Shown here: one piece after another, positions 36,382 through 63,544 of the stretch
How the letters are laid out: each line of letters starts with the position of its first letter
Position numbering within the stretch: position 1 is the first letter of the stretch
Source of the DNA: Manduca sexta
Taxonomy: Eukaryota; Arthropoda; Insecta; Lepidoptera; Sphingidae
Direction: 5' to 3'
Assembly: GCF_014839805.1 (NCBI RefSeq)
Contig: NC_051121.1
Coordinates: 1,967,116-2,031,115, forward strand
DNA length: 64,000 bases
Notes under the pieces: generated by a model
Seen by the model: the letters and a program-made list of their open reading frames with translations, nothing else
The model's database searches: none
What the model was told of the DNA's origin: nothing
Position numbers and translations under genes: made by a program

Positions 36382-38019
36382 TCTATACTATTATATAAAG
36401 CTGAAGAGTTTGTTTGTTTGTTTGTTTGTTTGTTTGTTTGAACGCGCTAATCTCAGGAACTACCGGTCCAAACTGAAAAATTCTTTTTGCGTTGGATAGC
36501 CCTATGTTCGTGGAGTGCTATAGGCTATATATCATCACGCTATACCTAATAGGAGCGGAGCAGTAATGCCTAATCTCAGGAACTACCGGTCCGAACTGAA
36601 AAATTATTTTTGCGTTGGATAGCCCTTTGTTCGTGGAGTGCTATAGGCTATATATCATCACGCTATACCCAATAGGAGCGGAGCAGTAATGGTTAATCTC
36701 AGGAACTACCGGTCCAAACTGAAAAATTCTTTTTGCGTTGGATAGCCCTATGTTCGTGGAGTGCTATAGACTATATATCATCACGCTATACCCAATAGGA
36801 GCGGAGCAGTAATGCCTAATCTCAGGAACTACCGGTCCGAACTGAAAAATTATTTTTGCGTTGGATAGCCCTTTGTTCGTGGAGTGCTATAGGCTATATA
36901 TCATCACGCTATACCCAATAGGAGCGGAGCAGTAATGGTTAATCTCAGGAACTACCGGTCCAAACTGAAAAATTATTTTTGCGTTGGATAGCCCTATGTT
37001 CGTGGAGTGCTATAGACTATATATCATCACGCTATACCCAATAGGAGCGGAGCAGTAATGCCTAATCTCAGGAACTACCGGTCCGAACTGAAAAAATCTT
37101 TTTGCGTTGGATAGCCCTTTGTTCGTGGAGTGCTATAGGCTATATATCATCACGCTATACCCAATAGGAGCGGAGCAGTAATGGTTAATCTCAGGAACTA
37201 CCGGTCCAAACTGAATTTTTTTTTGCGTTGGATAGCCTTTTGTTCGTGAAGTGCTATAGGCTATATATCATCACGCTATACCCAATAGGAGCAGAGCAGT
37301 AATGGCTAATCTCAGGAACTACCGGTCCAAACTGAAAAATTCATTTTGTATTGGATAGCCCTTTGTTCGTGAAGTGCTATAGGCTATATATCATCACGCT
37401 ATGACCAATAGGAGCAGAGCAGTAATGGCTAATCTCAGAAACTAGGAGTTTGAACTGAATAATTCTTTTTGTGTTGGATAGCCCTTTGTTCCTGGAATGC
37501 TATAGGCTATATATATCATCACGCTATGCCCAATAGGAGCGGAGCAGTAATCGCTAATCTCAGGAACTACCGGTTCGAACTGAAAAAATATTTTTGTGTT
37601 GGATAGCCCTTTGTTCCTGGAGTGCTATAGGTTATATATCGTCACGCTATGACCAATAGGAGCGGAGCAGTAATGAAACATGATGCAAAAACGGGGACAA
37701 TTTATTAGTTTTGAGAGCTTCTGTTGCGTGCGCTGCGTAAACGGTTAAAGTTATGCAACAATAATGTATGACGGGATTGTTCCTCTTAAAAAGTTCTACA
37801 AAATTATATCATAAAACAAAGTCCCCCGCTGCATCGGTCTGCCCGAACGTGTTAAACTCAAAAACTACCCAACGTATTAGGATAAAATTTGGTATGGAGA
37901 CAGTTTGAGACCCTGGGAAGAACATAGGCTCCCGGGAAAATATATAGCGTGACTTTTATAACGGAAAACTTTAGCCCGAAAAACTTTATAACGCGGGCGG
38001 AGCCGCGGGCAAAAGCTAG
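36382..38019 (+). mobile_element. Helitron-like element, non-autonomous, with internal tandem array
   Basis: It begins TCTATACTATTATATAAAGC directly after an A (36381) and ends in a GC hairpin region (GCGGGCGGAGCCGCGGGC) followed by AAAAGCTAG directly before a T (38020). A 5' TC start, a 3' hairpin plus CTRR end and A|T insertion are Helitron hallmarks. No Rep/helicase coding is present. The interior is a TTTG microsatellite, the 123-bp tandem array, and about 330 bases of unique tail. Confidence 0.72.
36441..37675 (+). repeat. 123-bp tandem repeat, about 10 copies, with dimeric order
   Basis: Units start near TCTCAGGAACTACCGGTCC and recur every 123 bases (36451, 36574, 36697, 36820). The first several alternate between two variants (CCGAACTG with TTTGTTCG, and CCAAACTG with ATGTTCG), giving a 246-bp higher-order repeat. 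The later units are more diverged and do not alternate cleanly. Confidence 0.93.
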
Positions 38020-46486: not shown

Positions 46487-46686
46487 TCAGAACCTCGCGC
46501 GGATGTAGACGGCGGCGACGTCGTGGTTGGCGTAGCCGAGGCGCTTGGCGTGCTTGAAGATCTCGTTGGTGGTGGCCGTCAGCGGCAGCGACTGCTCCAG
46601 CGCGTCGCCCAGCCCCAGCGCCAGCTTCAGGTCCTTCTGCATGTGGGTCAGCGGCTGGTGCGTCGAGTACGACGACTCGATCATCG
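46487..46686 (-). CDS. NPAC/GLYR1 homologue, terminal exon
   Basis: 200 bases: two bases completing an Ala codon, 65 codons and a TGA stop at 46487-46489. The acceptor is TTCCACAG|CGATG. It encodes MIESSYSTHQPLTHMQKDLK, then LALGLGDALEQSLPL and ends DVAAVYIRARF. This is the helical C-terminus of the dehydrogenase-like domain. The GC-rich exon stands out sharply from AT-rich surroundings. Confidence 0.92.
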
Positions 46687-49600
46687 CTGTGGAATGCAAT
46701 CTTACTCATTATTCATCATTCCTATTTAATAACGATTTTAGTTAGTAATAAACTACAATTTGTCCTCCTGTCGCGTTGTTAAAATAACACATTATTTTTT
46801 TAAGCAACTGTTGGTACAATTAATCCCAAATTTCTTGAACATCTATATGTTATGTATGTATATGAATCTAATTTTTTTTTGTCTCTTGTGCTGCAGTGCG
46901 GCTCGCATAGCTTTAGCGATATAAAGCGCATGATATCGACAATAGAAAACATGTAATTATTTCACGCGCGTCATTGTATCTACTACAAAAAGTTTAAAAA
47001 TAACTACACTCAATACAATAAACTGATTAAATTCATAATATATATTTATAAAGCCAACACGTTTACTGTTCTTTCTGAGACCAATTCCAATTGGTCATAA
47101 GTGGGATAAAATATACTTTTCCCAGTACGTCGAGCAGGTCGGCCTGGTCGAGTCGATGAGTGAGTGGCACTGACCTCGTCCCTTGAGTATGAGGTGCGGG
47201 CTGGCGAGTGGCGTGAGCGCGAGTACGTCGAGCAGGTCGGCCTGGTCGAGTCGATGAGTGAGTGGCACTGACCTCGTCCCTTGAGTATGAGGTGCGGGCT
47301 GGCGAGTGGCGTGAGCGCGAGTACGTCGAGCAGGTCGGCCTGGTCGAGTCGATGAGTGAGTGGCACTGACCTCGTCCCTTGAGTATGAGGTGCGGGCTGG
47401 CGAGTGGCGTGAGCGCGAGTACGTCGAGCAGGTCGGCCTGGTCGAGTCGATGAGTGAGTGGCACTGACCTCGTCCCTTGAGTATGAGGTGCGGGCTGGCG
47501 AGTGGCGTGAGCGCGAGTACGTCGAGCAGGTCGGCCTGGTCGAGTCGATGAGTGAGTGGCACTGACCTCGTCCCTTGAGTATGAGGTGCGGGCTGGCGAG
47601 TGGCGTGAGCGCGAGTACGTCGAGCAGGTCGGCCTGGTCGAGTCGATGAGTGAGTGGCACTGACCTCGTCCCTTGAGTATGAGGTGCGGGCTGGCGAGTG
47701 GCGTGAGCGCGAGTACGTCGAGCAGGTCGGCCTGGTCGAGTCGATGAGTGAGTGGCACTGACCTCGTCCCTTGAGTATGAGGTGCGGGCTGGCGAGTGGC
47801 GTGAGCGCGAGTACGTCGAGCAGGTCGGCCTGGTCGAGTCGATGAGTGAGTGGCACTGACCTCGTCCCTTGAGTATGAGGTGCGGGCTGGCGAGTGGCGT
47901 GAGCGCGAGTTCGTCGAGCAGGTCGGCCTGGTCGAGTCGATGAGTGAGTGGCACTGACCTCGTCCCTTGAGTATGAGGTGCGGGCTGGCGAGTGGCGTGA
48001 GCGCGAGTTCGTCGAGCAGGTCGGCCTGGTCGAGTCGATGAGTGAGTGGCACTGACCTCGTCCCTTGAGTATGAGGTGCGGGCTGGCGAGTGGCGTGAGC
48101 GCGAGTACGTCGAGCAGGTCGGCCTGGTCGAGTCGATGAGTGAGTGGCACTGACCTCGTCCCTTGAGTATGAGGTGCGGGCTGGCGAGTGGCGTGAGCGC
48201 GAGTACGTCGAGCAGGTCGGCCTGGTCGAGTCGATGAGTGAGTGGCACTGACCTCGTCCCTTGAGTATGAGGTGCGGGCTGGCGAGTGGCGTGAGCGCGA
48301 GTACGTCGAGCAGGTCGGCCTGGTCGAGTCGATGAGTGAGTGGCACTGACCTCGTCCCTTGAGTATGAGGTGCGGGCTGGCGAGTGGCGTGAGCGCGAGT
48401 ACGTCGAGCAGGTCGGCCTGGTCGAGTCGATGAGTGAGTGGCACTGACCTCGTCCCTTGAGTATGAGGTGCGAGCTGGCGAGTGGCGTGAGCGCGAGTAC
48501 GTCGAGCAGGTCGGCCTGGTCGAGTCGATGAGTGAGTGGCACTGACCTCGTCCCTTGAGTATGAGGTGCGGGCTGGCGAGTGGCGTGAGCGCGAGTACGT
48601 CGAGCAGGTCGGCCTGGTCGAGTCGATGAGTGAGTGGCACTGACCTCGTCCCTTGAGTATGAGGTGCGGGCTGGCGAGTGGCGTGAGCGCGAGTACGTCG
48701 AGCAGGTCGGCCTGGTCGAGTCGATGAGTGAGTGGCACTGACCTCGTCCCTTGAGTATGAGGTGCGGGCTGGCGAGTGGCGTGAGCGCGAGTTCGTCGAG
48801 CAGGTCGGCCTGGTCGAGTCGATGAGTGAGTGGCACTGACCTCGTCCCTTGAGTATGAGGTGCGGGCTGGCGAGTGGCGTGAGCGCGAGTACGTCGAGCA
48901 GGTCGGCCTGGTCGAGTCGATGAGTGAGTGGCACTGACCTCGTCCCTTGAGTATGAGGTGCGGGCTAGCGAGTGGCGTGAGCGCGAGTACGTCGAGCAGG
49001 TCGGCCTGGTCGAGTCGATGAGTGAGTGGCACTGACCTCGTCCCTTGAGTATGAGGTGCGGGCTGGCGAGTGGCGTGAGCGCGAGTTCGTCGAGCAGGTC
49101 GGCCTGGTCGAGTCGATGAGTGAGTGGCACTGACCTCGTCCCTTGAGTATGAGGTGCGGGCTGGCGAGTGGCGTGAGCGCGAGTACGTCGAGCAGGTCGG
49201 CCTGGTCGAGTCGATGAGTGAGTGGCACTGACCTCGTCCCTTGAGTATGAGGTGCGGGCTGGCGAGTGGCGTGAGCGCGAGTACGTCGAGCAGGTCGGCC
49301 TGGTCGAGTCGATGAGTGAGTGGCACTGACCTCGTCCCTTGAGTATGAGGTGCGGGCTGGCGAGTGGCGTGAGCGCGAGTACGTCGAGCAGGTCGGCCTG
49401 GTCGAGTCGATGAGTGAGTGGCACTGACCTCGTCCCTTGAGTATGAGGTGCGGGCTGGCGAGTGGCGTGAGCGCGAGTACGTCGAGCAGGTCGGCCTGGT
49501 CGAGTCGATGAGTGAGTGGCACTGACCTCGTCCCTTGAGTATGAGGTGCGGGCTGGCGAGTGGCGTGAGCGCGAGTACGTCGAGCAGGTCGGCCTGGTCG

Positions 49601-52600
49601 AGTCGATGAGTGAGTGGCACTGACCTCGTCCCTTGAGTATGAGGTGCGGGCTGGCGAGTGGCGTGAGCGCGAGTTCGTCGAGCAGGTCGGCCTGGTCGAG
49701 TCGATGAGTGAGTGGCACTGACCTCGTCCCTTGAGTATGAGGTGCGGGCTGGCGAGTGGCGTGAGCGCGAGTACGTCGAGCAGGTCGGCCTGGTCGAGTC
49801 GATGAGTGAGTGGCACTGACCTCGTCCCTTGAGTATGAGGTGCGGGCTAGCGAGTGGCGTGAGCGCGAGTACGTCGAGCAGGTCGGCCTGGTCGAGTCGA
49901 TGAGTGAGTGGCACTGACCTCGTCCCTTGAGTATGAGGTGCGGGCTGGCGAGTGGCGTGAGCGCGAGTACGTCGAGCAGGTCGGCCTGGTCGAGTCGATG
50001 AGTGAGTGGCACTGACCTCGTCCCTTGAGTATGAGGTGCGGGCTGGCGAGTGGCGTGAGCGCGAGTACGTCGAGCAGGTCGGCCTGGTCGAGTCGATGAG
50101 TGAGTGGCACTGACCTCGTCCCTTGAGTATGAGGTGCGGGCTGGCGAGTGGCGTGAGCGCGAGTACGTCGAGCAGGTCGGCCTGGTCGAGTCGATGAGTG
50201 AGTGGCACTGACCTCGTCCCTTGAGTATGAGGTGCGGGCTGGCGAGTGGCGTGAGCGCGAGTACGTCGAGCAGGTCGGCCTGGTCGAGTCGATGAGTGAG
50301 TGGCACTGACCTCGTCCCTTGAGTATGAGGTGCGGGCTGGCGAGTGGCGTGAGCGCGAGTTCGTCGAGCAGGTCGGCCTGGTCGAGTCGATGAGTGAGTG
50401 GCACTGACCTCGTCCCTTGAGTATGAGGTGCGGGCTGGCGAGTGGCGTGAGCGCGAGTACGTCGAGCAGGTCGGCCTGGTCGAGTCGATGAGTGAGTGGC
50501 ACTGACCTCGTCCCTTGAGTATGAGGTGCGGGCTAGCGAGTGGCGTGAGCGCGAGTACGTCGAGCAGGTCGGCCTGGTCGAGTCGATGAGTGAGTGGCAC
50601 TGACCTCGTCCCTTGAGTATGAGGTGCGGGCTGGCGAGTGGCGTGAGCGCGAGTTCGTCGAGCAGGTCGGCCTGGTCGAGTCGATGAGTGAGTGGCACTG
50701 ACCTCGTCCCTTGAGTATGAGGTGCGGGCTGGCGAGTGGCGTGAGCGCGAGTACGTCGAGCAGGTCGGCCTGGTCGAGTCGATGAGTGAGTGGCACTGAC
50801 CTCGTCCCTTGAGTATGAGGTGCGGGCTGGCGAGTGGCGTGAGCGCGAGTACGTCGAGCAGGTCGGCCTGGTCGAGTCGATGAGTGAGTGGCACTGACCT
50901 CGTCCCTTGAGTATGAGGTGCGGGCTGGCGAGTGGCGTGAGCGCGAGTACGTCGAGCAGGTCGGCCTGGTCGAGTCGATGAGTGAGTGGCACTGACCTCG
51001 TCCCTTGAGTATGAGGTGCGGGCTGGCGAGTGGCGTGAGCGCGAGTACGTCGAGCAGGTCGGCCTGGTCGAGTCGATGAGTGAGTGGCACTGACCTCGTC
51101 CCTTGAGTATGAGGTGCGGGCTGGCGAGTGGCGTGAGCGCGAGTACGTCGAGCAGGTCGGCCTGGTCGAGTCGATGAGTGAGTGGCACTGACCTCGTCCC
51201 TTGAGTATGAGGTGCGGGCTGGCGAGTGGCGTGAGCGCGAGTACGTCGAGCAGGTCGGCCTGGTCGAGTCGATGAGTGAGTGGCACTGACCTCGTCCCTT
51301 GAGTATGAGGTGCGGGCTGGCGAGTGGCGTGAGCGCGAGTTCGTCGAGCAGGTCGGCCTGGTCGAGTCGATGAGTGAGTGGCACTGACCTCGTCCCTTGA
51401 GTATGAGGTGCGGGCTGGCGAGTGGCGTGAGCGCGAGTTCGTCGAGCAGGTCGGCCTGGTCGAGTCGATGAGTGAGTGGCACTGACCTCGTCCCTTGAGT
51501 ATGAGGTGCGGGCTGGCGAGTGGCGTGAGCGCGAGTACGTCGAGCAGGTCGGCCTGGTCGAGTCGATGAGTGAGTGGCACTGACCTCGTCCCTTGAGTAT
51601 GAGGTGCGGGCTAGCGAGTGGCGTGAGCGCGAGTACGTCGAGCAGGTCGGCCTGGTCGAGTCGATGAGTGAGTGGCACTGACCTCGTCCCTTGAGTATGA
51701 GGTGCGGGCTGGCGAGTGGCGTGAGCGCGAGTACGTCGAGCAGGTCGGCCTGGTCGAGTCGATGAGTGAGTGGCACTGACCTCGTCCCTTGAGTATGAGG
51801 TGCGGGCTGGCGAGTGGCGTGAGCGCGAGTACGTCGAGCAGGTCGGCCTGGTCGAGTCGATGAGTGAGTGGCACTGACCTCGTCCCTTGAGTATGAGGTG
51901 CGGGCTGGCGAGTGGCGTGAGCGCGAGTACGTCGAGCAGGTCGGCCTGGTCGAGTCGATGAGTGAGTGGCACTGACCTCGTCCCTTGAGTATGAGGTGCG
52001 GGCTGGCGAGTGGCGTGAGCGCGAGTACGTCGAGCAGGTCGGCCTGGTCGAGTCGATGAGTGAGTGGCACTGACCTCGTCCCTTGAGTATGAGGTGCGGG
52101 CTGGCGAGTGGCGTGAGCGCGAGTTCGTCGAGCAGGTCGGCCTGGTCGAGTCGATGAGTGAGTGGCACTGACCTCGTCCCTTGAGTATGAGGTGCGGGCT
52201 GGCGAGTGGGCGTGAGCGCGAGTACGTCGAGCAGGTCGGCCTGGTCGAGTCGATGAGTGAGTGGCACTGACCTCGTCCCTTGAGTATGAGGTGCGGGCTG
52301 GCGAGTGGCGTGAGCGCGAGTACGTCGAGCAGGTCGGCCTGGTCGAGTCGATGAGTGAGTGGCACTGACCTCGTCCCTTGAGTATGAGGTGCGGGCTGGC
52401 GAGTGGCGTGAGCGCGAGTTCGTCGAGCAGGTCGGCCTGGTCGAGTCGATGAGTGAGTGGCACTGACCTCGTCCCTTGAGTATGAGGTGCGGGCTGGCGA
52501 GTGGCGTGAGCGCGAGTACGTCGAGCAGGTCGGCCTGGTCGAGTCGATGAGTGAGTGGCACTGACCTCGTCCCTTGAGTATGAGGTGCGGGCTAGCGAGT

Positions 52601-55600
52601 GGCGTGAGCGCGAGTACGTCGAGCAGGTCGGCCTGGTCGAGTCGATGAGTGAGTGGCACTGACCTCGTCCCTTGAGTATGAGGTGCGGGCTGGCGAGTGG
52701 CGTGAGCGCGGAGTTCGTCGAGCAGGTCGGCCTGGTCGAGTCGATGAGTGAGTGGCACTGACCTCGTCCCTTGAGTATGAGGTGCGGGCTGGCGAGTGGC
52801 GTGAGCGCGAGTTCGTCGAGCAGGTCGGCCTGGTCGAGTCGATGAGTGAGTGGCACTGACCTCGTCCCTTGAGTATGAGGTGCGGGCTGGCGAGTGGCGT
52901 GAGCGCGAGTACGTCGAGCAGGTCGGCCTGGTCGAGTCGATGAGTGAGTGGCACTGACCTCGTCCCTTGAGTATGAGGTGCGGGCTGGCGAGTGGCGTGA
53001 GCGCGAGTTCGTCGAGCAGGTCGGCCTGGTCGAGTCGATGAGTGAGTGGCACTGACCTCGTCCCTTGAGTATGAGGTGCGGGCTGGCGAGTGGCGTGAGC
53101 GCGAGTTCGTCGAGCAGGTCGGCCTGGTCGAGTCGATGAGTGAGTGGCACTGACCTCGTCCCTTGAGTATGAGGTGCGGGCTGGCGAGTGGCGTGAGCGC
53201 GAGTACGTCGAGCAGGTCGGCCTGGTTGAGTCCGGCGCGGTCGGCGAGCGCGAGTCCCTCGGCCAGCGCCGCGAGCGACACGCCGCCCACCACCTGCAGC
53301 ACCGAGTTCATCTTCGACGCGTTGCCGATGTCACCTGCCACACACGGTACATAAGGTGAATTACCTTACTCTTTAGCGGACCATTACTAGCGATCCCTCA
53401 CAATAATTATATTGAATAAAGCTTGCCGGATCTATGCTTTTAACCGATAGACAATTAATATTTATGACCTTGAGTCACAAAATAGGACGGCTAACAAGGA
53501 ACTTCATGATTACATCTTTAGTATAGATTCTAAGACAAGATAAGCAATTTTATCCAAATACTTAAAACCTGTAACGGAAGCTCAGCCTAAAATTTGGCTT
53601 AGAATTAATCACAAGGTCATTAATAAACTAGCGAAAAGCATTCTAAATGCCAACATTTTCTTTCCCAATGTTTTATATTTCTGGCAAGACAACATTAAAT
53701 ATTAATTAACATAAGTTTTTTTTTTGTATAATATCAATATTTTAATGATGTGACTTTTTATTATAAAAAACAAGATTACACAGTACACACACGATATTAT
53801 AATATAAAGTAAATGAGTAAATAACCCCCATGCATCTGATGGTAAGACTAAGAGAAGTGGGGTCCTAATAGTGTGTCAACTGAGGAGAGATATTTACTAC
53901 AGAGGCTAGTTACTCTAACCAGTTATATGGGCTACTGTGGGCGGTTTTTCACGGATGTTGCTATCCGGGCAAATACAAATATCCTACCACCAGCATTAAA
54001 TTAACAATTAAACAATCTTCATGTTTAGACCTGTAAAAAAACATTGAAACGAAACACAGACACACATCCATTCACTATTCGACCTACATGTGCATTCCAT
54101 AAATACATCATACTGTACTAAATACGTGTAAAAAAATATATCATGCAAAAGACGCTCAGATTTGATCGTTGACATTTAAAACGTAAAAAAAGCCGTGCTA
54201 AAATAAATACTTAAAAAAAATATAATAAGTTCTAACTAATCATGCCAAAATTATTTTAAATAAAAAAAAAACTAATCATTCAAATAATGAAAAAAAAAAC
54301 TGTGACGAATGTCCAAACACGTGTCTCGTGCGCATCATGCTCTATTTGTAAAACATAACCAGAAGTAACACACAGAAGTGATCAACTATATTTTAATAAG
54401 AAAAAAACTAAGATGAATTCAATAACCCAAGAAATAAAAATCAATAAATACAAAACTGCTACAAATATCGTGTGTTGCAGATAGGGGATATAACTATAAT
54501 AATATCAGCCCTGTATTATATACTATATAATAGGGGATATAGGGAGGAAAATTTCAACTTCACAAATAGTGAATTCAAGTCTTCTTTAGTAACAAGTAGA
54601 CAATGATACGTCTTGTTATTAGTTATTATTGTTACCCCTATTCTGCAACACCCTGTATGCTTATATTACATTTTATTCTTTCCTACAATAATACCATACA
54701 GTTCTATAAATCGGCATGCTTAAAATGGCACTGTTCAAATCCTTTACGAATAAACGTGTCTTACAACAGCTCGGTCGATAAACGTATTTTCTTCACAAAA
54801 ATTTCCCAAAAAGCATACATCAAACTGCCACGTGTACCGTTCAAAGCCTACGTATTTGGACAGCGTGCATCAGTGTGTGCGAGCAAATGTCAACGGCCAA
54901 CGTTCCTCGCGCCGGCAAAAGGACAAGCAGACTACTACCAAGGTAAAAGGAGTTCTTGCTCATCGCCTTGAAGCACGACTGGCAGTCGTCGAACAGCGTG
55001 CGGTCGCCGGCCGCCAGGATTATCAGAGTACCCTCTTCCGCTTGCGTTTTTGATCCTTGGATCTGAAAAGGAATTATGTTTTATTATTTTTTTTATACCA
55101 ATGCATAGATGAGCTTGACGCTCTCCTGAGAGTAGGCTAACCTTTATTCTTTAGACGTATCGATTTCTGGAAACCATTCCTCGTTAAATAGCACTCATAA
55201 TAAAACTAGGATATAAAAGCCGCAAAGGATTCGATAGCCGTATTGAATTAACAATACATGCAGATTATTTTTTAGCTAATTGGGTGTTCGAGATCACAAA
55301 TTCTATATGCACGCTATAATATGTCATCTGTCAATATTATTTAGGTGTACTTTTAATTATTTTCTTTGTGTATCATATCCCGCAGACTACGTCGGGGGAT
55401 TAACCTGCATATGGAATACTGGAATCTCCTGGCTTAGCAACTGCAGGGCCCTGGAGGAAAGTTGGGAGGGGATATCTGAGGCAGGAAATGTGGGGCAAGG
55501 ACAAGGAACCTTCATAGAATAAGAGAAGTGGAGATGGTCAGGAAATGTAGGCGAGCCTTCGTACACACTGGACTGTGTGCCTAGGGCCGGGACAAAATAT

Positions 55601-58600
55601 GGTGTGGAGACCGCGCATAAAAGTTCGGTCAGGGGGGAAGTTTTAATTATTAACCGCAGTAACGTGGGCTGACGACTTGAAAAAGGCGGCGGGTAACGCA
55701 TGGGTACGGGCCACTCAAAACCAGGATTGGTTTGGTTGGTGGTTGGCGCTCATTTGAACCCTACGTTTAGCAATAGATGACAATAGACTAATAGACCAGA
55801 TATTTTTAATATACGGACACGCTAAAATGATACCCTGCATCGGTTGGTAAGGGTCGAGTGTCGACTAACGAAAGATGATTACGTCTCTCCAGTCGCCACA
55901 TTTAAGGCATCCTATTTGAAACTGGACATACACAGACTGATACTGGAACACGACACACTTATATGAACTACTATACCGGTTTATCCGGTTATTAATACAA
56001 ATATCCTACCACCAGCACAAAAACTAATTCCACGTACCTGAGCTTCAAGATACCGTCCTCCCTTCCCGCTGATGGCCTCGACGATGTCGTGAGATGTGTC
56101 CGCGTCGATGGATGTCATCTCAACGTACCCCTTCGATTCCAGCGAGGGACAGTGCAGCACGCCGCAGTTGCCGAACACCATCTGAAATATATATCACAAG
56201 GTATTAGTATCATTACGATTGGAAATTAAATCGATGATCTGTTCTAGGTGATGCCTTTTTACGTCTGGTGAAGAGATAGATATTCGCGAATGGGTTTATA
56301 ATATTTTTTTAATTACATAGTAACTAGTAAGTTAATTTATGTTTTGTTTTTTTTTGTTTTGACTTCTTATATGTATATGACTTTTATTTATGTTATTGAT
56401 ATTTTTATTGAGTGACGCTCCATTGCTCGCGTCGAACACGGACATTATATAAAGTTTCACGCCACGTAATTACGCCAGCTATAATATCAAACATGAGCAC
56501 GACACAACAGCACAGACCTTTACAAAAAAAAATGCAATACCGGGGAACCTACCCAGGCAGACGAACAGCAGTACACACTTACAATACAGAACGGAATATA
56601 ATGCAATAAAATGATATTCTTAACTATATTATACAGAATAGTCGCTATGAACATTCCTGCAAACGGGACTTAGAGTTGTGACCACTCGGTGAATTCTTCA
56701 CCTCACCTCACCGGGGGATGCTACACATCAGGAGGTCCATTTGTTCATTTGCCTACTACGTTAAGAAAAAAGTTCTTTTAAATTTCTTATACTATATAAA
56801 TAAAATCAGAGGTCATTCTACAAATATATATCACAGACCACATAAATCCACGACATATCAATGTAATAATACCATAGAACGTTCTCGTCGTGACAAAGAT
56901 TATAATAGTAAAGGTCAGTGTGGATTTGAACTCGGGCTCCCGCGGCGCGACCTTTGAGCCACATCAACGCTCGACATAAAACATAATCGACCTATAAATG
57001 TGACACAGGAACATGCCTCCATGGGCTTTATTGGGAGATTTAAGTCATAACGTATATAACAGTATATAAACTTATATAAGACCAGCTTTTGCTTGCGTAT
57101 CCGAAAGAATAGGTTTTCCCGAGATAAAAAGTAGCTCATATTCTTCTCAGGGTTTTAAACTATCTTCATAGCAAAATTTATCGAAATCGGTTCAGTGGTT
57201 CAACCGTGAAAGCGTAACAAACAGCAGTGACTTTCGCATTTATAATATAAGTATGGCGGTATATAAAATCATCTACGAATTATGCATTACAGCATGGTGC
57301 CTTATACAGTGTTGCATAATCATCATCTGTGGAAAGAATAATTTGTAACCCGTTTTGATAGACAGGAACAAAAATGACATTATTATTTTACATTTTCTAA
57401 TAAAATTTTCGCCAGATTCACATAAATATATTATGTGTAACGGAACCAATTTAAGGATAACAATAATGACTTCTCGTGTTGCAAGTCAAAATCTAACTTG
57501 GGTCGATGCACCACTCTACCTTTGCGACCCCTAAAAGTAATTCGCCCTTAAAATGAACTAAAGTAACTAACAACAATAATTAACTAACAACCAATGTTTT
57601 ACACTAAACATACTTTGATTCAAAGTAATTTGTTAACGTTTACTAATTGATTCAAGGGTCACAATACGAATGTTAACCTCAACATTATTTGGAAAGTATG
57701 AAACAAAAGTTTTTTTCTTGTAACATCATTCTCTTGTGGCTTTAATAGGTAATTTATATAGCAATATTTTGCTACAGTCTGGTCACCAAGAACGCATACG
57801 CCATGCACATATATCCTACATTTAATATTGAACACCATGATAGATCAATTTTCTAAAACTCGCTCTTATCTTTGAATGAACATCTTTTAGATATTAATAG
57901 TTTAAAACGTCGTGACTGAATTGGTGGCTAAGCTGTATTGCGCACGCAGTACGACTATCGCGTTGAGGTGTCGGATTTGAATCCGGGAGTCTACAATTGT
58001 CACCGTTAATGGCAATAGACCCGCCTATTACATGAGACCTAACACTGCTAAATTAGTGTGTATTACATATCTGCCTATTTTCAAAAACGTAAAAGGCTGA
58101 CCCTATGTATATATGAGTATATATAAAACAGAACAGTCAAAAGGTAAAAAAAATTACTGTCGCCCACTCAACCTTATTACTTTCTTTGAAAATTAACTGC
58201 GACGCGCCCATGAACTCTATGACATTGTAGGCGTTTATTGGAGAGGTAATAATTTACCATCCGATGACCTATTAGATCATCTACTGGAATGCTATAGAAA
58301 AATATATTTTACATAAAAGTCTACAAGGCTACTCCTCAAAATCCGACTACAAACTACAATCCTGTCTCAAAGTAGTAAAGGTAAATAGGCAGATTTCGCA
58401 GATTTATTTATCTATTTGTTTGTCAGTCCACCCCGTGACCATGAAGACTGCGTAGATGAGAATTATAATGTAAAAACCGCGGTAAAAACCACAAAATAAT
58501 TTTATTTTAATGTCTAACATTCGCGTAAACATAAGAATTCATTAGTAAAGATGGCATTGACCATAATGTATCCTCAGTCCTCAGAGTGCACTGCGAGGAA

Positions 58601-59908
58601 GTTATGATGCCTTAGTACACTGAGATATAAGCAATAAAGGTCGTACATAAAACGGGCTATAAACTCAACGTCCTCGCGATAGACGAAGCGTTATGACTAC
58701 GGAAAACAACATAAAACCCACCTGATAGGTGTATGAACCTCGGCGGTATTAAAAAGTTATACGCCAAGTATTAAAACTTTTGTCATTAGGAAGACTTCGA
58801 GGATTCGTTTCCTTGAATTGTAAATACAATAAATGCATTTTGTTATGGATTTAGACCACGCTTCATTTTAGATAAACACAATTTCTTTAGCATAAAGTTT
58901 CATCAGACTGCCTCGGTGGCGTAGTTGTACTGCATTCGCGGTACGACAGCGCTCTGAGGTCCTGGGTTCGAATCCCGGGCAGTGATATTTGGGTTTTTCT
59001 GCTCAGTATTAACCCGGAGTCTGGAATTTGTGCCCGATATGGCGATAAGCTCGCCCCCTATCACATCATGGGACGGACCAAACTTGGCGAAAAGTGGGTG
59101 CCCTGGTTGCACCTCTGCATACCCCTTCGGGGATAAATGCCTGATGTTGTGTATAATGTTTCATCTAAATATCTTAATTATAATATTAAGGTATTACAAA
59201 TCATAAAACTTGAATATAGCTGTTATTGACACAGATTTAAATTATATTCCGTAGTGTAAACAGATCAATAGCCCCGTACCGAGCTACTCCAGTCTGCGTA
59301 GCGTCTTACATTTCCATGAAACCTCTTAAAAGCGCGAGCTTCTCTTGTGAAAGGATTAAGTTTCATTGAAGACTGAGTTACGTTCAATATTTATTTATTT
59401 ACTACGTAGACTACATTTTAAGTAGGTAAGGCATCGAGGTAAGGTGAACATTCCTATAACTTTTTTCTGTTTTGATTTGTATTCGTTGTTTATCCAATAA
59501 AAATATTCTTCAACGATTTTGTACAACAAAAGTTTAAAAATACCCATTTTATTATCAAACGCTTTATGAGTTCATCTAAAACAGAAACTAATTCAAAATT
59601 TATTTTCTCAAGTTTGTTTTCTTTTTGTATCATGATATTAATTCACATATTTTCTCAATATAGGAACGAACGCAGTGCAGTAAGCAGTGTCACGCAGAAC
59701 TTTCATTCTTCACTTTTCACATCTTATAGGCATTTGCATCTCTTCATTCAACAGACTTACGGGCACATTATTCAAGTGTGTGGAAGTAAGTCATTACCTC
59801 CTTAGCAGCCTGAGGATCCGCCACGCATGAGAATGTGATATCCGCCTCCTCCACCACGTCGCACGGCGTGACGGCTATCGTGGCGCCCACCTTCTCGAAG
59901 TCTTTGCA
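46487..59908 (-). CDS. NPAC/GLYR1 (nucleosome-destabilizing factor) homologue, 3' part, five exons
   Basis: Five minus-strand exons join in phase to give about 252 residues matching the C-terminal beta-hydroxyacid-dehydrogenase-like domain of NPAC/GLYR1. Recognisable stretches, in order, are ADITFSCVADPQAAKEMVFG, KGYVEMTSIDADT, GGRYLEAQ, GTLIILAAGDRTLFDDC, LGDIGNASKM and MQKDLKLALGLGDALEQS. In animals this family is a chromatin protein: a PWWP domain reads histone marks, and the dehydrogenase-like domain tetramerises and supports LSD2 or nucleosome destabilisation. The PWWP domain, AT-hook linker and Rossmann GxGxxG region are not in the window, so the 5' exons should lie beyond 64000. Each junction has GT and AG ends and consistent phase (0, 0, 1, 1). 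A poly(A) signal (AATAAA on the minus strand) lies at 46402-46407, about 80 bases past the stop. The last intron carries the 98-bp array. The family assignment is strong; orthology versus paralogy is not tested. Confidence 0.9.
47124..53232 (-). repeat. Exon/intron-junction satellite, 98-bp unit, about 62 copies
   Basis: A perfect-phase tandem array of about 62.3 units spans 6.1 kb and fills almost the whole last intron of the NPAC/GLYR1 homologue. On the gene's strand each unit holds the end of the upstream exon (QADLLDVLALTPLASPHLILKGR), the donor GACGAG|GTCAGT, and about 25 intron bases, before re-entering exon sequence at GACTCGACCAGG. The first unit overlaps the real exon end. Units are nearly identical. 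Variation is mostly a Val/Glu codon change (GTACTC versus GAACTC), five units with CTAGCG instead of CTGGCG on the plus strand, and two single-G insertions near 52210 and 52710. There is no ATG on the minus strand within the unit. Because 98 is not a multiple of 3 and the unit lacks stops, all three minus frames stay open for long distances. The array is GC-rich inside an AT-rich region. Confidence 0.97.
53155..53334 (-). CDS. NPAC/GLYR1 homologue, penultimate exon (source of the 98-bp satellite)
   Basis: 180 bases. The acceptor is GTGGCAG|GTG and the donor GACGAG|GTCAGT at 53154-53153. It encodes DIGNASKMNSVLQVVGG, then LAEGLALADRAGLNQADLLD and VLALTPLASPHLILKGR. The last base G joins CG of the final exon to give Ala (GRAMIESS), which fits the family's KGKAM-type junction. 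A lysine is present in GNASKM; whether it is positioned as a catalytic beta-HAD lysine needs an alignment. Its last ~78 bases, with the donor and ~25 intron bases, are the founder of the tandem array downstream. Confidence 0.9.
53825..53995 (+). repeat. Diverged family A repeat in an intron
   Basis: CATCTGATGGTAAGAC, GTGTCAACTGAGGAGAGAT and an end ACAAATATCCTACCACCAGC follow the family A order. It lies between NPAC/GLYR1 exons. Confidence 0.55.
54493..54528 (-). mobile_element. 3' fragment of type 2 SINE
   Basis: A short piece reading AATATCAGCCCTGTATTATA matches only the tail end of the type 2 SINE in minus orientation. It lies in an NPAC/GLYR1 intron. Confidence 0.5.
54939..55062 (-). CDS. 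NPAC/GLYR1 homologue, internal exon
   Basis: 124 bases: 41 codons plus one base. The acceptor is TTTTCAG|ATC and the donor CTTG|GTAGTA. It encodes IQGSKTQAEEGTLIILAAGD and then RTLFDDCQSCFKAMSKNSFYL. The final G joins GT of the next exon to make the Gly of the LGDIGNA motif. It matches the family's GMLVILAAGDRGLYEDC region. Confidence 0.9.
55380..55640 (+). repeat. Low-copy repeat related to 31185-31425
   Basis: The shared blocks are those listed for the partner copy. This copy lies in an NPAC/GLYR1 intron. Confidence 0.45.
55815..56018 (+). repeat. Diverged family A repeat in an intron
   Basis: GTGTCGACTAACGAAAGATG, ACTGATACTGGAACACGAC and ACAAATATCCTACCACCAGC match family A. It ends 20 bases before the exon donor at 56038. 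Confidence 0.55.
56038..56181 (-). CDS. NPAC/GLYR1 homologue, internal exon
   Basis: 144 bases, exactly 48 codons. The acceptor is TTTCAG|ATG and the donor CAG|GTACGT. It begins MVFGNCGVL and ends GGRYLEAQ. The KGYVEMTSIDADT segment corresponds to the KGYVDMSTVD segment of vertebrate GLYR1. The ATG at its start is internal to the protein, not an initiation codon. Confidence 0.9.
57916..58045 (+). mobile_element. Diverged type 1 SINE relic
   Basis: CTGAATTGGTGGCTAAGCTG, a B-box-like GATTTGAATCC and GGCAATAGACCCGCC keep the order of the type 1 SINE, but with many changes. No duplication is evident. Confidence 0.5.
58425..58510. repeat. Degraded copy of the 'cgaaacgtcggga' repeat family
   Basis: CCGTGACCATGAAGACTGC and AACCGCGGTAAAAACC keep the order of the copy near 46020. 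It is intronic in the NPAC/GLYR1 homologue. Confidence 0.4.
58905..59157 (+). mobile_element. tRNA-derived SINE, type 1, with target-site duplication
   Basis: Second copy of the family at 19783, flanked by GTTTCATC (58897-58904 and 59158-59165). It lies in an NPAC/GLYR1 intron on the opposite strand to the gene. Confidence 0.88.
59798..59908 (-). CDS. NPAC/GLYR1 homologue, first visible exon
   Basis: 111 bases, 37 codons, phase 0 at both ends. The acceptor is TCCACAG|TGC and the donor GAG|GTAATG. It encodes CKDFEKVGATIAVTP followed by the EEADITFSCVADP segment, which in the family belongs to the nucleotide-binding half just after the first beta-alpha units. The preceding exon should end in the sequence equivalent to the human WNRTAEK segment; I did not find it between here and 64000, so the upstream intron is at least 4 kb and holds a mariner and a SINE. 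Confidence 0.88.
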
Positions 59909-62236: not shown

Positions 62237-63544
62237 CTTAGTCTGGCCATAAATACTGTTACACTTAATTATAAAAAAATATTACATTTGAATTTCGAAT
62301 CTGTCATTTTTATACGATTGTTCATTGTGTTTTCTCATTTTGGCGCCAATACATTGTAAAATATTTTGCGATATTAAAATGGTGTGGGGTGATAAAGAGA
62401 ACCGAATCGCTGTGATAGCATTACACAAAGTAGGTATGGAGCCAAATGCAATTTTTAAAACTCTCCATACACTTGGTATTAGTAAAATGTTTGTGTACCG
62501 GGCTATTAATAGGTACAATGAGACCTCCTCTGTTTGTGACAGAAAAAGATCTGGCCGTCCACGTAGTGTTCGTACGAAAAAGGTGGTCAAAGCAGTAAGG
62601 GAAAGAATTCGAAGAAATCCTGTCCGAAAGCAAAAGATTTTATCTCGGGAAATGAAGATAGCACCTAGAACCATGTCGCGTATTTTAAAAGATGACTTAG
62701 GACTTGCAGCCTATAAGAGACGCACTGGCCATTTCTTAACTGATAATTTAAAGAAGAATAGGGTGGTAAAATCGAAACAACTACTGAAGCGGTACGCAAA
62801 GGGAGGTCACAGAAAAATTTTGTTTACGGATGAGAAAATTTTTACAATTGAGCAACATTTTAACAAACAAAATGACCGTATTTATGCTCAAAGCTCTAAG
62901 GAAGCTTCCCAATTAGTCGACAGAGTGCAACGTGGACATTATCCGACTTCAGTGATGGTTTGGTGGGGTGTTAGCTATGAAGGAGTGACTGAGCCATATT
63001 TTTGTGAAAAAAGGTATCAAAACATCGGCACAAGTGTATCAAGATACCATTCTTGAGAAGGTAGTTAAGCCCCTTAACATCACCATGTTCAATAACCAAG
63101 TATGGTCCTTCCAGCAAGACTCGGCGCCGGGTCATAAAGCTCGGTCCACGCAGTCTTGGTTGGAATCGAACGTTTCGGACTTCATCAGAGCTGAAGACTG
63201 GCCGTCGTCTAGTCCCGATCTTAATCCGCTGGATTATGATTTGTGGTCAGTTTTAGAGAGTACAGCTTGCTCTAAACGCCATGATAATTTGGAGTCCCTA
63301 AAACAATCTATACGATTGGCAGTGAAGAATTTTCCCATGGAAAGAGTGCGTGCTTCTATTGATAACTGGCCTCATCGTTTAAAGGACTGTATTGCAGCCA
63401 ATGGAGACCACTTCGAATAAGCTTTTTATATTTTTAATTGTTTTATATTTATGTATTAAACTGACACACTGTAAAAGTAATAAATGTTATTTGCAGTTAA
63501 CAATTTTCTTTTTTCTTTATTACAATATTTATGGCAAGACTAGG
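62237..63544 (+). mobile_element. D37D (maT/Bmmar1-like) mariner, 1308 bp
   Basis: Imperfect terminal inverted repeats of about 25 bases begin CTTAGTCTGGCCATAAATAC on the left and, reverse-complemented, CCTAGTCTTGCCATAAATAT on the right. TA dinucleotides flank both ends (62235-62236 and 63545-63546), as expected for Tc1/mariner insertion. A transposase reading frame lies inside. The element sits in an intron of the NPAC/GLYR1 homologue, in opposite orientation to that gene. Confidence 0.88.
62379..63420 (+). pseudogene. Mariner transposase, frameshifted
   Basis: The frame opens with MVWGDKENRIAVIALHK (ATG at 62379) and carries an N-terminal helix-turn-helix region and a GRPRS linker motif. 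It then has the catalytic blocks TDEKIF, QQDSAPGH and SSSPDLNPLDYDLW. Between the second Asp (QQD) and the third (LDY) I count 37 residues, placing it in the D37D group rather than D34D mariner or D34E Tc1. An extra A in the A-run near 63007-63012 shifts the frame: the first part ends early at 63054-63056 and the rest continues in the next frame to the stop at 63418-63420. Both halves are otherwise intact, so the copy looks young but non-autonomous. Confidence 0.88.

Follow-up and report, generated by a model that had tools for sequence, protein, structure and literature searches.

A 98-bp minisatellite copying an exon-intron junction within the last intron of GLYR1 in Manduca sexta

Introduction

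Minisatellites that span an exon-intron boundary have been described in amphioxus as "mirages" in Adh3 and in the globin genes BflGb6 and BflGb9, where the clusters are unstable in length and the data are said to indicate that regular splicing is left undisturbed (PMC3087553). Arrays with a dual-specific splice site (AGGT) are described for the polyubiquitin gene UBC and for VCX3A, with dual use shown by RT-PCR (PMC10809524), and in the potato RdRp case a new intron arose by tandem duplication (PMC4974935). Among the titles and beginnings of abstracts listed from the open-licence literature, no exon-border array of an insect was found.

The window described here, the whole stretch of 64,000 nucleotides of Manduca sexta DNA that was analyzed, contains an array with features of a mirage: its unit spans an exon-intron boundary, the authentic boundary adjoins the cluster, and AG/GT signals lie within the repeats.

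GLYR1 and the 98-bp array

The window contains five exons that join into 252 amino acids (aa) of GLYR1 closing with a stop codon, and the joints have AG acceptors and GT donors.

59798..59908, minus strand, exon e1 (CKDFEK...AAKE)
56038..56181, minus strand, exon e2 (MVFGNC...LEAQ)
54939..55062, minus strand, exon e3 (IQGSK...FYLG)
53155..53334, minus strand, exon e4, 180 nt (GDIGNAS...LILKGR), the array's first member being formed by its final 78 nt
46687..53154, minus strand, last intron of GLYR1, phase 1
46487..46686, minus strand, last exon, e5 (AMIESSYS...YIRARF, stop)

A Manduca sexta protein matches the joined exons at 100% identity over the 252 aa, and the best PDB match of the product is 2uyy ("N-PAC PROTEIN", E value of 1.2e-64). 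One GLYR1 gene was found in the genome (69 matches, each on C7 within GLYR1 or the array), and its exons span from e5 up to one on the start side that lies ∼85 kb upstream of the array. A normal GLYR1 protein of Manduca sexta is also on record (P0005), with a regular e4/e5 joint and the NAD_binding_11 domain kept; viral contigs scanned with P0005 yielded no relative.

The last intron is largely occupied by the array, and four features describe it.

47124..53232, minus strand, 98-bp tandem array, 62.3 copies (TRF)
53149..53154, minus strand, authentic 5' splice site GTCAGT (context GAG/GTCAGT, the slash marking the exon end)
52664..52762, minus strand, unit 5, 99 bp with one extra C, a reading also found in isoform P0038
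52173..52271, minus strand, unit 10, 99 bp with one extra C at a different place

In this single assembly, representing one haplotype, TRF gives a period of 98, 62.3 copies, and 99% matches over exactly 47124-53232. Read in the gene sense, the unit consists of 20 nt of intron start and the last 78 nt of e4; the exon-derived part has a single mismatch at its sixth base, and the 72 nt beyond it are identical to e4. GAG/GTCAGT occurs 62 times on the gene (minus) strand, at the authentic exon end and in 61 further copies, and the donors are spaced 98 bp apart in 59 of 61 intervals and 99 bp in the other 2, such that every full unit carries the motif. The GC content of the array is 0.64, against 0.30 in the 437 bp of the intron that lie beyond it.

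A preliminary description made from the sequence had claimed a head-to-tail 98-bp array of ∼62 units at these positions, within the last intron of an NPAC/GLYR1 homologue and beginning seamlessly at the real exon end. All of this holds: span and period are the same by TRF, the PDB match and the 252-aa identity identify the gene, e5 is its final exon, and the exon end at 53155 is the first of the 62 evenly spaced donors. The composition of the unit as exon end, donor, and intron start also stands, although the proportions given (∼73 plus 25 bases) need correction to 78 plus 20.

At its far end, position 47124, the array breaks off inside the exon part, in a different phase from its beginning; simple tandem duplication by itself does not produce such an end, so that a later deletion must be assumed. 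A hairpin-driven origin was considered and rejected, as neither the unit nor the exon end folds better as single-stranded DNA than do shuffled sequences (z scores of −0.37 and 0.30). In 194 kb of the scaffold, this is the one array that reaches both 20 copies and a 20-bp period.

Unit variation and genomic distribution

The units are nearly identical, as the preliminary description had noted: among the 59 units of exactly 98 bp, mean pairwise identity is 99.4%, the minimum is 98.0%, and only 3 columns vary. In 5 of 5 cases, ".T" comes next after a unit of type "s", an arrangement reached in 13 of 200,000 shuffles, and blocks of at least three units have therefore been copied together. Concerted evolution within the array, a further mirage criterion, is evident in the 99.4% identity and in the five-of-five "s.T" blocks.

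As far as the genome search extends, the unit is confined to one locus. A 201-base query has at least 62 matches in the 470-Mb genome, every one of those found lying inside the array, and a short-word BLAST across the window matched neither the exon end nor the unit outside it. This is the genome-wide check that the preliminary description had proposed, and its term "satellite" is apt for the tandem, near-identical units but not in the genome-wide sense, the array being a single-locus minisatellite.

Splicing signals and isoform P0038

Each 98-bp unit contains one AG/GT, located at the donor. Splicing between units would hence excise whole units, and removal of any number of them leaves an identical junction. 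One annotated Manduca model, isoform P0038, apparently placed on the scaffold of the window, lacks exactly three units (294 nt).

52861..53154, minus strand, 294-nt stretch (three units) absent from isoform P0038, one of two GT-AG solutions
52592..52594, minus strand, first in-frame stop (TAG) when e4 is read on into the array

There are five single-intron solutions for the missing 294 nt, of which two are GT-AG, both running from AG/GT to AG/GT (the other at 52763-53056), and three are GC-AG. P0038 is annotated as a read-through, truncated form without an NAD_binding_11 match and belongs to a cluster of six member sequences; it could instead stem from a shorter allele or from spurious spliced alignment within the repeats. 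Reading e4 on into the array adds 187 residues past the exon before the first stop (246 counted from DIGN), and the unit is free of stops in all three gene-strand frames. Selection for stop-free units was rejected as an explanation, since stops are likewise absent from 1,769 of 20,000 base-shuffled units.

The donor itself is not exceptional. The pairing energy of GAG/GTCAGT with U1 is −6.1 kcal/mol, compared to −6.7, −7.4, and −4.8 kcal/mol for e1 to e3, and the idea of an unusually strong donor at the array was discarded. The pyrimidine tract of the AG preceding each unit's GT is weak (0.50 over 18 nt), though that of the authentic e5 acceptor scores the same (0.50). Used as the sole change, 60 of the 61 internal donors would shift the frame or truncate the protein and the remaining one would add 98 residues, and thus neutrality of the array requires accurate splicing.

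Copies of the exon end in other moths

Gene models of other moths also run into copies of the e4 end, in Chrysodeixis, Scirpophaga, and probably Phthorimaea. The Chrysodeixis model contains roughly fifteen units of 100 bp, solved uniquely from its three-frame protein, with 100 bp alone fitting among the five lengths tried (98 to 102), and the Scirpophaga unit is about 101 bp as counted from the peptide. The left breakpoints in e4 differ, with 78 nt of exon included in Manduca, 64 nt in Chrysodeixis, and at least 117 nt in the model that we take by inferred name to be Phthorimaea; the local intron start is included in both Manduca and Chrysodeixis. Read-through models of Chrysodeixis, Scirpophaga, and Ostrinia also imply the position of the last intron, and the Ostrinia model P0059, one of four donor read-through models, has no copy within 14 residues after the exon.

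A search with the Chrysodeixis repeat peptide returned three proteins, the query included, among 7,988 candidates scored, and one with the Manduca repeat peptide returned none but the query itself among 2,064. A regular e4/e5 joint is present in 33 of the 39 moth proteins scanned, and such joints are uninformative on intron content. On this evidence from gene models, amplification of the e4 boundary seems to have occurred in several moth lineages, or since a distant ancestor. Models P0001 (Phthorimaea, name inferred) and P0002 (Chilo) duplicate the end of a different exon, e2.

Discussion

The array is probably a near-neutral minisatellite of the mirage type, spread by multi-unit exchange and tolerated through its removal by splicing. 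DNA across the e4/intron border would have been duplicated in tandem, with the copies multiplying through exchanges of several units at once, and intronic position together with removal as a whole would make the array nearly neutral. Splicing may act in either of two ways: the first donor may be used, its position as the end of a 180-nt exon determining the choice, or whole units may be excised between AG/GT sites, regenerating the same exon end.

A second possibility, doubtful but not negligible, is that the array is ancient: a common ancestor of several moth families would have acquired the duplicated junction, and the constrained exon, as a lasting seed, would have kept renewing it, the period holding close to 100 bp despite drift of unit borders and intron parts. 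Copies of this exon end with units of 98 bp in Manduca, 100 bp in Chrysodeixis, and about 101 bp in Scirpophaga, and probably in Phthorimaea, agree with such an origin, as do the local intron starts in the Manduca and Chrysodeixis units, which renewal from the local exon predicts; however, the disparate left breakpoints and the copy-free Ostrinia read-through speak against it, and the regular joints in most of the proteins scanned are silent on the intron. A stronger version, which we consider unlikely, is that the GLYR1 e4 end is a self-renewing array seed across moths, where a constrained exon re-seeds its own intron and stepwise splicing of whole units at AG/GT hides the array from the mature message. 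If so, splicing would both permit and shape unlimited array growth, with the truncated GLYR1 form as a by-product.

It is improbable that the array is functional, with its 62 like U1 sites controlling the last splicing step or yielding a regulated GLYR1 without the C-terminal domain (isoform X2). The annotated truncated isoform, the stop-free unit, and the 187-residue read-through would fit such a role, but stop-free units are unremarkable among shuffles, U1 pairing is ordinary, and units differ from species to species. An assembly artefact, in which a few real copies were inflated by the assembler, is very improbable: although the copy number comes from a single assembly and P0038, apparently annotated on the same scaffold, provides no independent check, the units carry differences arranged in blocks, with 3 substitution columns and two separate single-base insertions, Chrysodeixis also has many units at the same junction, and the 194 kb of scaffold that were inspected, including the array flanks, contain no N. 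The idea of a genome-wide satellite, older than the gene, that landed by chance in a GLYR1 intron is rejected within the limits of the search, as all of the matches found (at least 62) in 470 Mb are in the array and the unit is made of e4 itself.

The array is a naturally occurring test of how a 5' splice site is chosen, with 62 donors of the same sequence and near-same exon context competing in one pre-mRNA, and its host, GLYR1, is a gene for a chromatin protein. It also raises the question of whether mutational hotspots exist at certain exon borders, or whether tandem arrays can have a functional exon as their permanent seed. Whole-unit splicing at AG/GT, if real, would explain concretely why such arrays are allowed to grow and would offer a path by which new introns arise.

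Among known systems, satellite DNA is similar in its head-to-tail, near-identical, homogenized units but differs in that here they form one 6-kb locus derived from its own host gene, with no further copies found in the genome searched. The UBC and VCX3A arrays likewise have AGGT in the unit, an arrangement in which inter-unit splicing removes units whole; dual use is documented there by RT-PCR, and in Manduca it is implied by one annotated model (PMC10809524). Repeats in UBC are coding and spaced at 228 nt, which is a multiple of three (a property not common to all published cases), whereas the Manduca units are intronic and 98 or 99 bp (PMC10809524). The potato RdRp case likewise involves a tandem duplication that spans an exon-intron boundary and provides splice signals, but it produced a new intron, whereas the Manduca array sits within an intron whose position is implied in other moths (PMC4974935); a new 294-nt intron within the array is implied by the annotated model P0038.

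The closest relatives are the amphioxus mirages, which have the same anatomy (PMC3087553), and an array that copies a coding exon end, called unusual in the preliminary description, is therefore not the first of its kind. Amphioxus units are 150 to 160, 157, and 10 to 72 bp, compared to 98 bp here, and the Manduca array is larger than the globin examples, with 62 units against 6 and 3 in two haplotypes of BflGb6 (PMC3087553). The present array is in an insect rather than a cephalochordate, and with the orthologous exon end copied in gene models of several families of Lepidoptera, exon-border minisatellites are extended from amphioxus to moths.

GLYR1/NPAC is the host of the array

Five exons of GLYR1/NPAC, e1 to e5, lie in the window:

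59908-59798, minus strand, e1, GLYR1/NPAC exon
56181-56038, minus strand, e2, GLYR1/NPAC exon
55062-54939, minus strand, e3, GLYR1/NPAC exon
53334-53155, minus strand, e4, GLYR1/NPAC exon
46686-46487, minus strand, e5, GLYR1/NPAC exon with the stop at its end

Joined, these exons code for 252 aa followed by a stop. The gene product matches Pfam NAD_binding_2 and NAD_binding_11 (the query included a few intron residues after e1), and its best solved-structure match is 2uyy 'N-PAC PROTEIN' (E 1.2e-64), a human protein. With 100% identity to the regular Manduca sexta protein, P0005, across 252 aa, the gene is NPAC/GLYR1, as the preliminary description had it. A genome search with P0005 gives 69 matches, all on scaffold C7 within GLYR1 or its array, and the gene therefore appears to be single-copy in Manduca. 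Additional upstream exons are present on C7, the next one separated from e1 by ~67 kb and the farthest found ~85 kb upstream of the array. The e3 donor (54930-54945) reads TTG|GTAGTAGTC and has two GT sites 3 bases apart, which could give rise to the YLGDIGN and YLGSDIGN forms seen among homologous proteins.

Anatomy and growth of a single-locus array

In the last intron, TRF reports a 98-bp period with 62.3 copies at 47124-53232, and GAG|GTCAGT occurs in gene sense at the authentic e4 end and at 61 more positions, spaced by 98 nt in 59 of 61 intervals and by 99 nt in the other two, bearing out the proposed head-to-tail array of ~62 units. Each unit does span the e4 end, the donor, and the intron start, and the proposed split of ~73 plus ~25 is corrected to the first 20 nt of the intron followed by the final 78 nt of e4. 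The commonest unit has one mismatch to e4, and among the 59 units that are 98 bp long identity averages 99.4% with three variable columns, consistent with the near identity first noted. The last unit is partial and ends within the exon part, so the two ends of the array are out of phase; GC content is 0.64 in the array versus 0.30 in the AT-rich intron beyond that end. A palindrome-like 18-bp sequence, GACCAATTCCAATTGGTC, is located at 47079-47096, 27 bp outside the far end.

The genome-wide search suggested in the preliminary description places the unit at this locus: a 201-base query combining the exon end with the unit has 62 matches in the 470,002,661-base genome (counts are lower bounds), all inside C7:2014239-2020415, which is the array and its exon. 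Among tandem arrays with periods of at least 20 bp in 194 kb of C7, this one alone has at least 20 copies.

Two other repetitive features share the window. A 123-bp tandem repeat at 36446-37675 (10 copies, 92% match) is a dispersed repeat family, because three related arrays of 4 to 10 copies each, mutually 91-95% alike, lie along the 194 kb of C7, the other two ~39 kb and ~82 kb past the window end; the 98-bp unit has no match to the 123-bp array in the window. Open frames with transposase domains are present at 62292-63417: one contains HTH_29 (winged helix-turn-helix), another has a DDE_3 match that falls below the curated cut-off, and the region resembles a decayed mariner-like element.

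Labeled by variant from the exon side, 61 units read TT.T+s.T.iT....s.TT......Ts.T....s.T.....Ts.T..c....TT....... and all five 's' units are followed by '.T', an order matched by 13 of 200,000 shuffles; multi-unit blocks have therefore been copied together. This unit order suggests growth by unequal exchange or segmental copying, and not by single-unit slippage alone. Single-strand folding of the unit is no better than that of shuffles.

Splicing across the array

The e4 donor is ordinary in strength, with a U1 pairing of -6.1 kcal/mol compared to -6.7, -7.4, and -4.8 for e1 to e3, computed against the U1 end. Every array copy has an identical donor and a nearly identical upstream exon context. 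When all 62 donors were joined to e5 in silico by script, only the authentic donor and that of the third copy (adding 98 residues) gave the normal frame and C-terminus; the other joins meet a stop in the array (56/62), an out-of-frame stop in e5 (3/62), or no stop within e5 (1/62). Either donor choice must therefore be accurate or aberrant products must be removed.

AGGT occurs exactly once per unit, at the donor, and splicing between units, with GT as the donor in one and AG as the acceptor in another, would remove whole units and restore the e4 end identically. Dual-specific AGGT sites are in use in human UBC, and dual-specific introns are overrepresented among tandem-repeat genes (PMC10809524).

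An annotated Manduca isoform, P0038, is taken to be annotated on C7, since its listed contig has the same length of 12,803,118 bases. Its tail matches the genomic read-through except that exactly 98 residues are absent, and it retains the reading of the 99-bp unit 5. All five single-intron solutions (GT or GC donors, AG acceptors) are 294 nt, two with GT (both AG|GT to AG|GT) and three with GC (AG|GC to AG|GC). P0038 is an annotation and not RNA, and the same picture would result from a spurious alignment or from transcripts of a shorter allele. Its product has no match to NAD_binding_11.

Copies of the e4 end in other moths

Among the best 120 of 821 homologues, 39 carry the moth e4 motif; 33 of these have the regular e4/e5 joint, where intron content is invisible in the protein, and six do not. 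Four of these six irregular models, P0037, P0116, P0001, and Manduca's own P0038, contain an e4-end copy. P0037 (Chrysodeixis includens, Noctuidae) continues for 510 residues past e4. Demanding that its first 100 read-through residues represent one DNA unit in three frames yields a solution at 100 bp only (98, 99, 101, and 102 fail) with all 100 bases fixed: 36 nt of intron starting GTACGT plus the last 64 nt of e4. An alignment of the read-through to repeats of this unit has 461 identities in 490 aligned residues, but it is split into 18 blocks, contains large gaps, and matches poorly over one stretch; this pattern is as expected for a gene model forced through repeats, and the 510 residues would represent about fifteen units if all are array.

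In P0116 (Scirpophaga incertulas, Crambidae), donor read-through leads to an e4-end peptide in another frame; one of 12 offsets fits, and shuffled peptides fit at any offset in 0 of 20,000 cases. P0001, which we read as Phthorimaea (an inferred name), contains two copies each of 40 e4 residues and of 38 e2 residues. There is no e4 copy in the 14 read-through residues past e4 in P0059 (Ostrinia nubilalis), nor in P0097 (Colias croceus), whose C-terminus is the last exon read in a shifted frame; both are evidence against a universal array. Among 7988 candidates scored, the Chrysodeixis repeat peptide matches only P0037, P0116, and P0038; among 2064 scored with the Manduca repeat peptide, P0038 is the only match.

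The e2 border may be a second duplication-prone exon border of GLYR1, judging from predicted proteins, because the e2 end is doubled in P0001 and also in P0002 (Chilo suppressalis; 28 residues), where an apparent read-through of the e2 donor precedes the second copy. In P0036 (Eumeta japonica), e2 is followed by an insert with no copy in it, and no e2-end copy was found within the window (e2, 56038-56181).

Copies in Manduca include 78 nt of exon, those in Chrysodeixis 64 nt, and that in the Phthorimaea model at least 117 nt. The periods are close, at 98 bp in Manduca, 100 bp in Chrysodeixis, and, counted from the peptide, ~101 bp in Scirpophaga. Differing breakpoints with close periods fit repeated origin at a hotspot, and they also fit an old array with drifting borders. 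What causes the same e4 end to be copied in several moths is the more exciting question raised.

Relationship to mirage minisatellites

The observation in the preliminary description is confirmed, and its interpretation is supported with the qualifications described here. The array is most likely, and with reasonable confidence, a mirage minisatellite that is neutral, unstable, and tolerated by splicing. Among matches listed in the open-licence literature, as judged from titles and the starts of abstracts, we found no insect exon-border array. We classify the array as a mirage minisatellite because of its anatomical features, and relative to the amphioxus mirages (PMC3087553), the Manduca case adds a larger size than the globin examples, an insect host, e4-end copies in several moth lineages, and an array of AG|GT sites.
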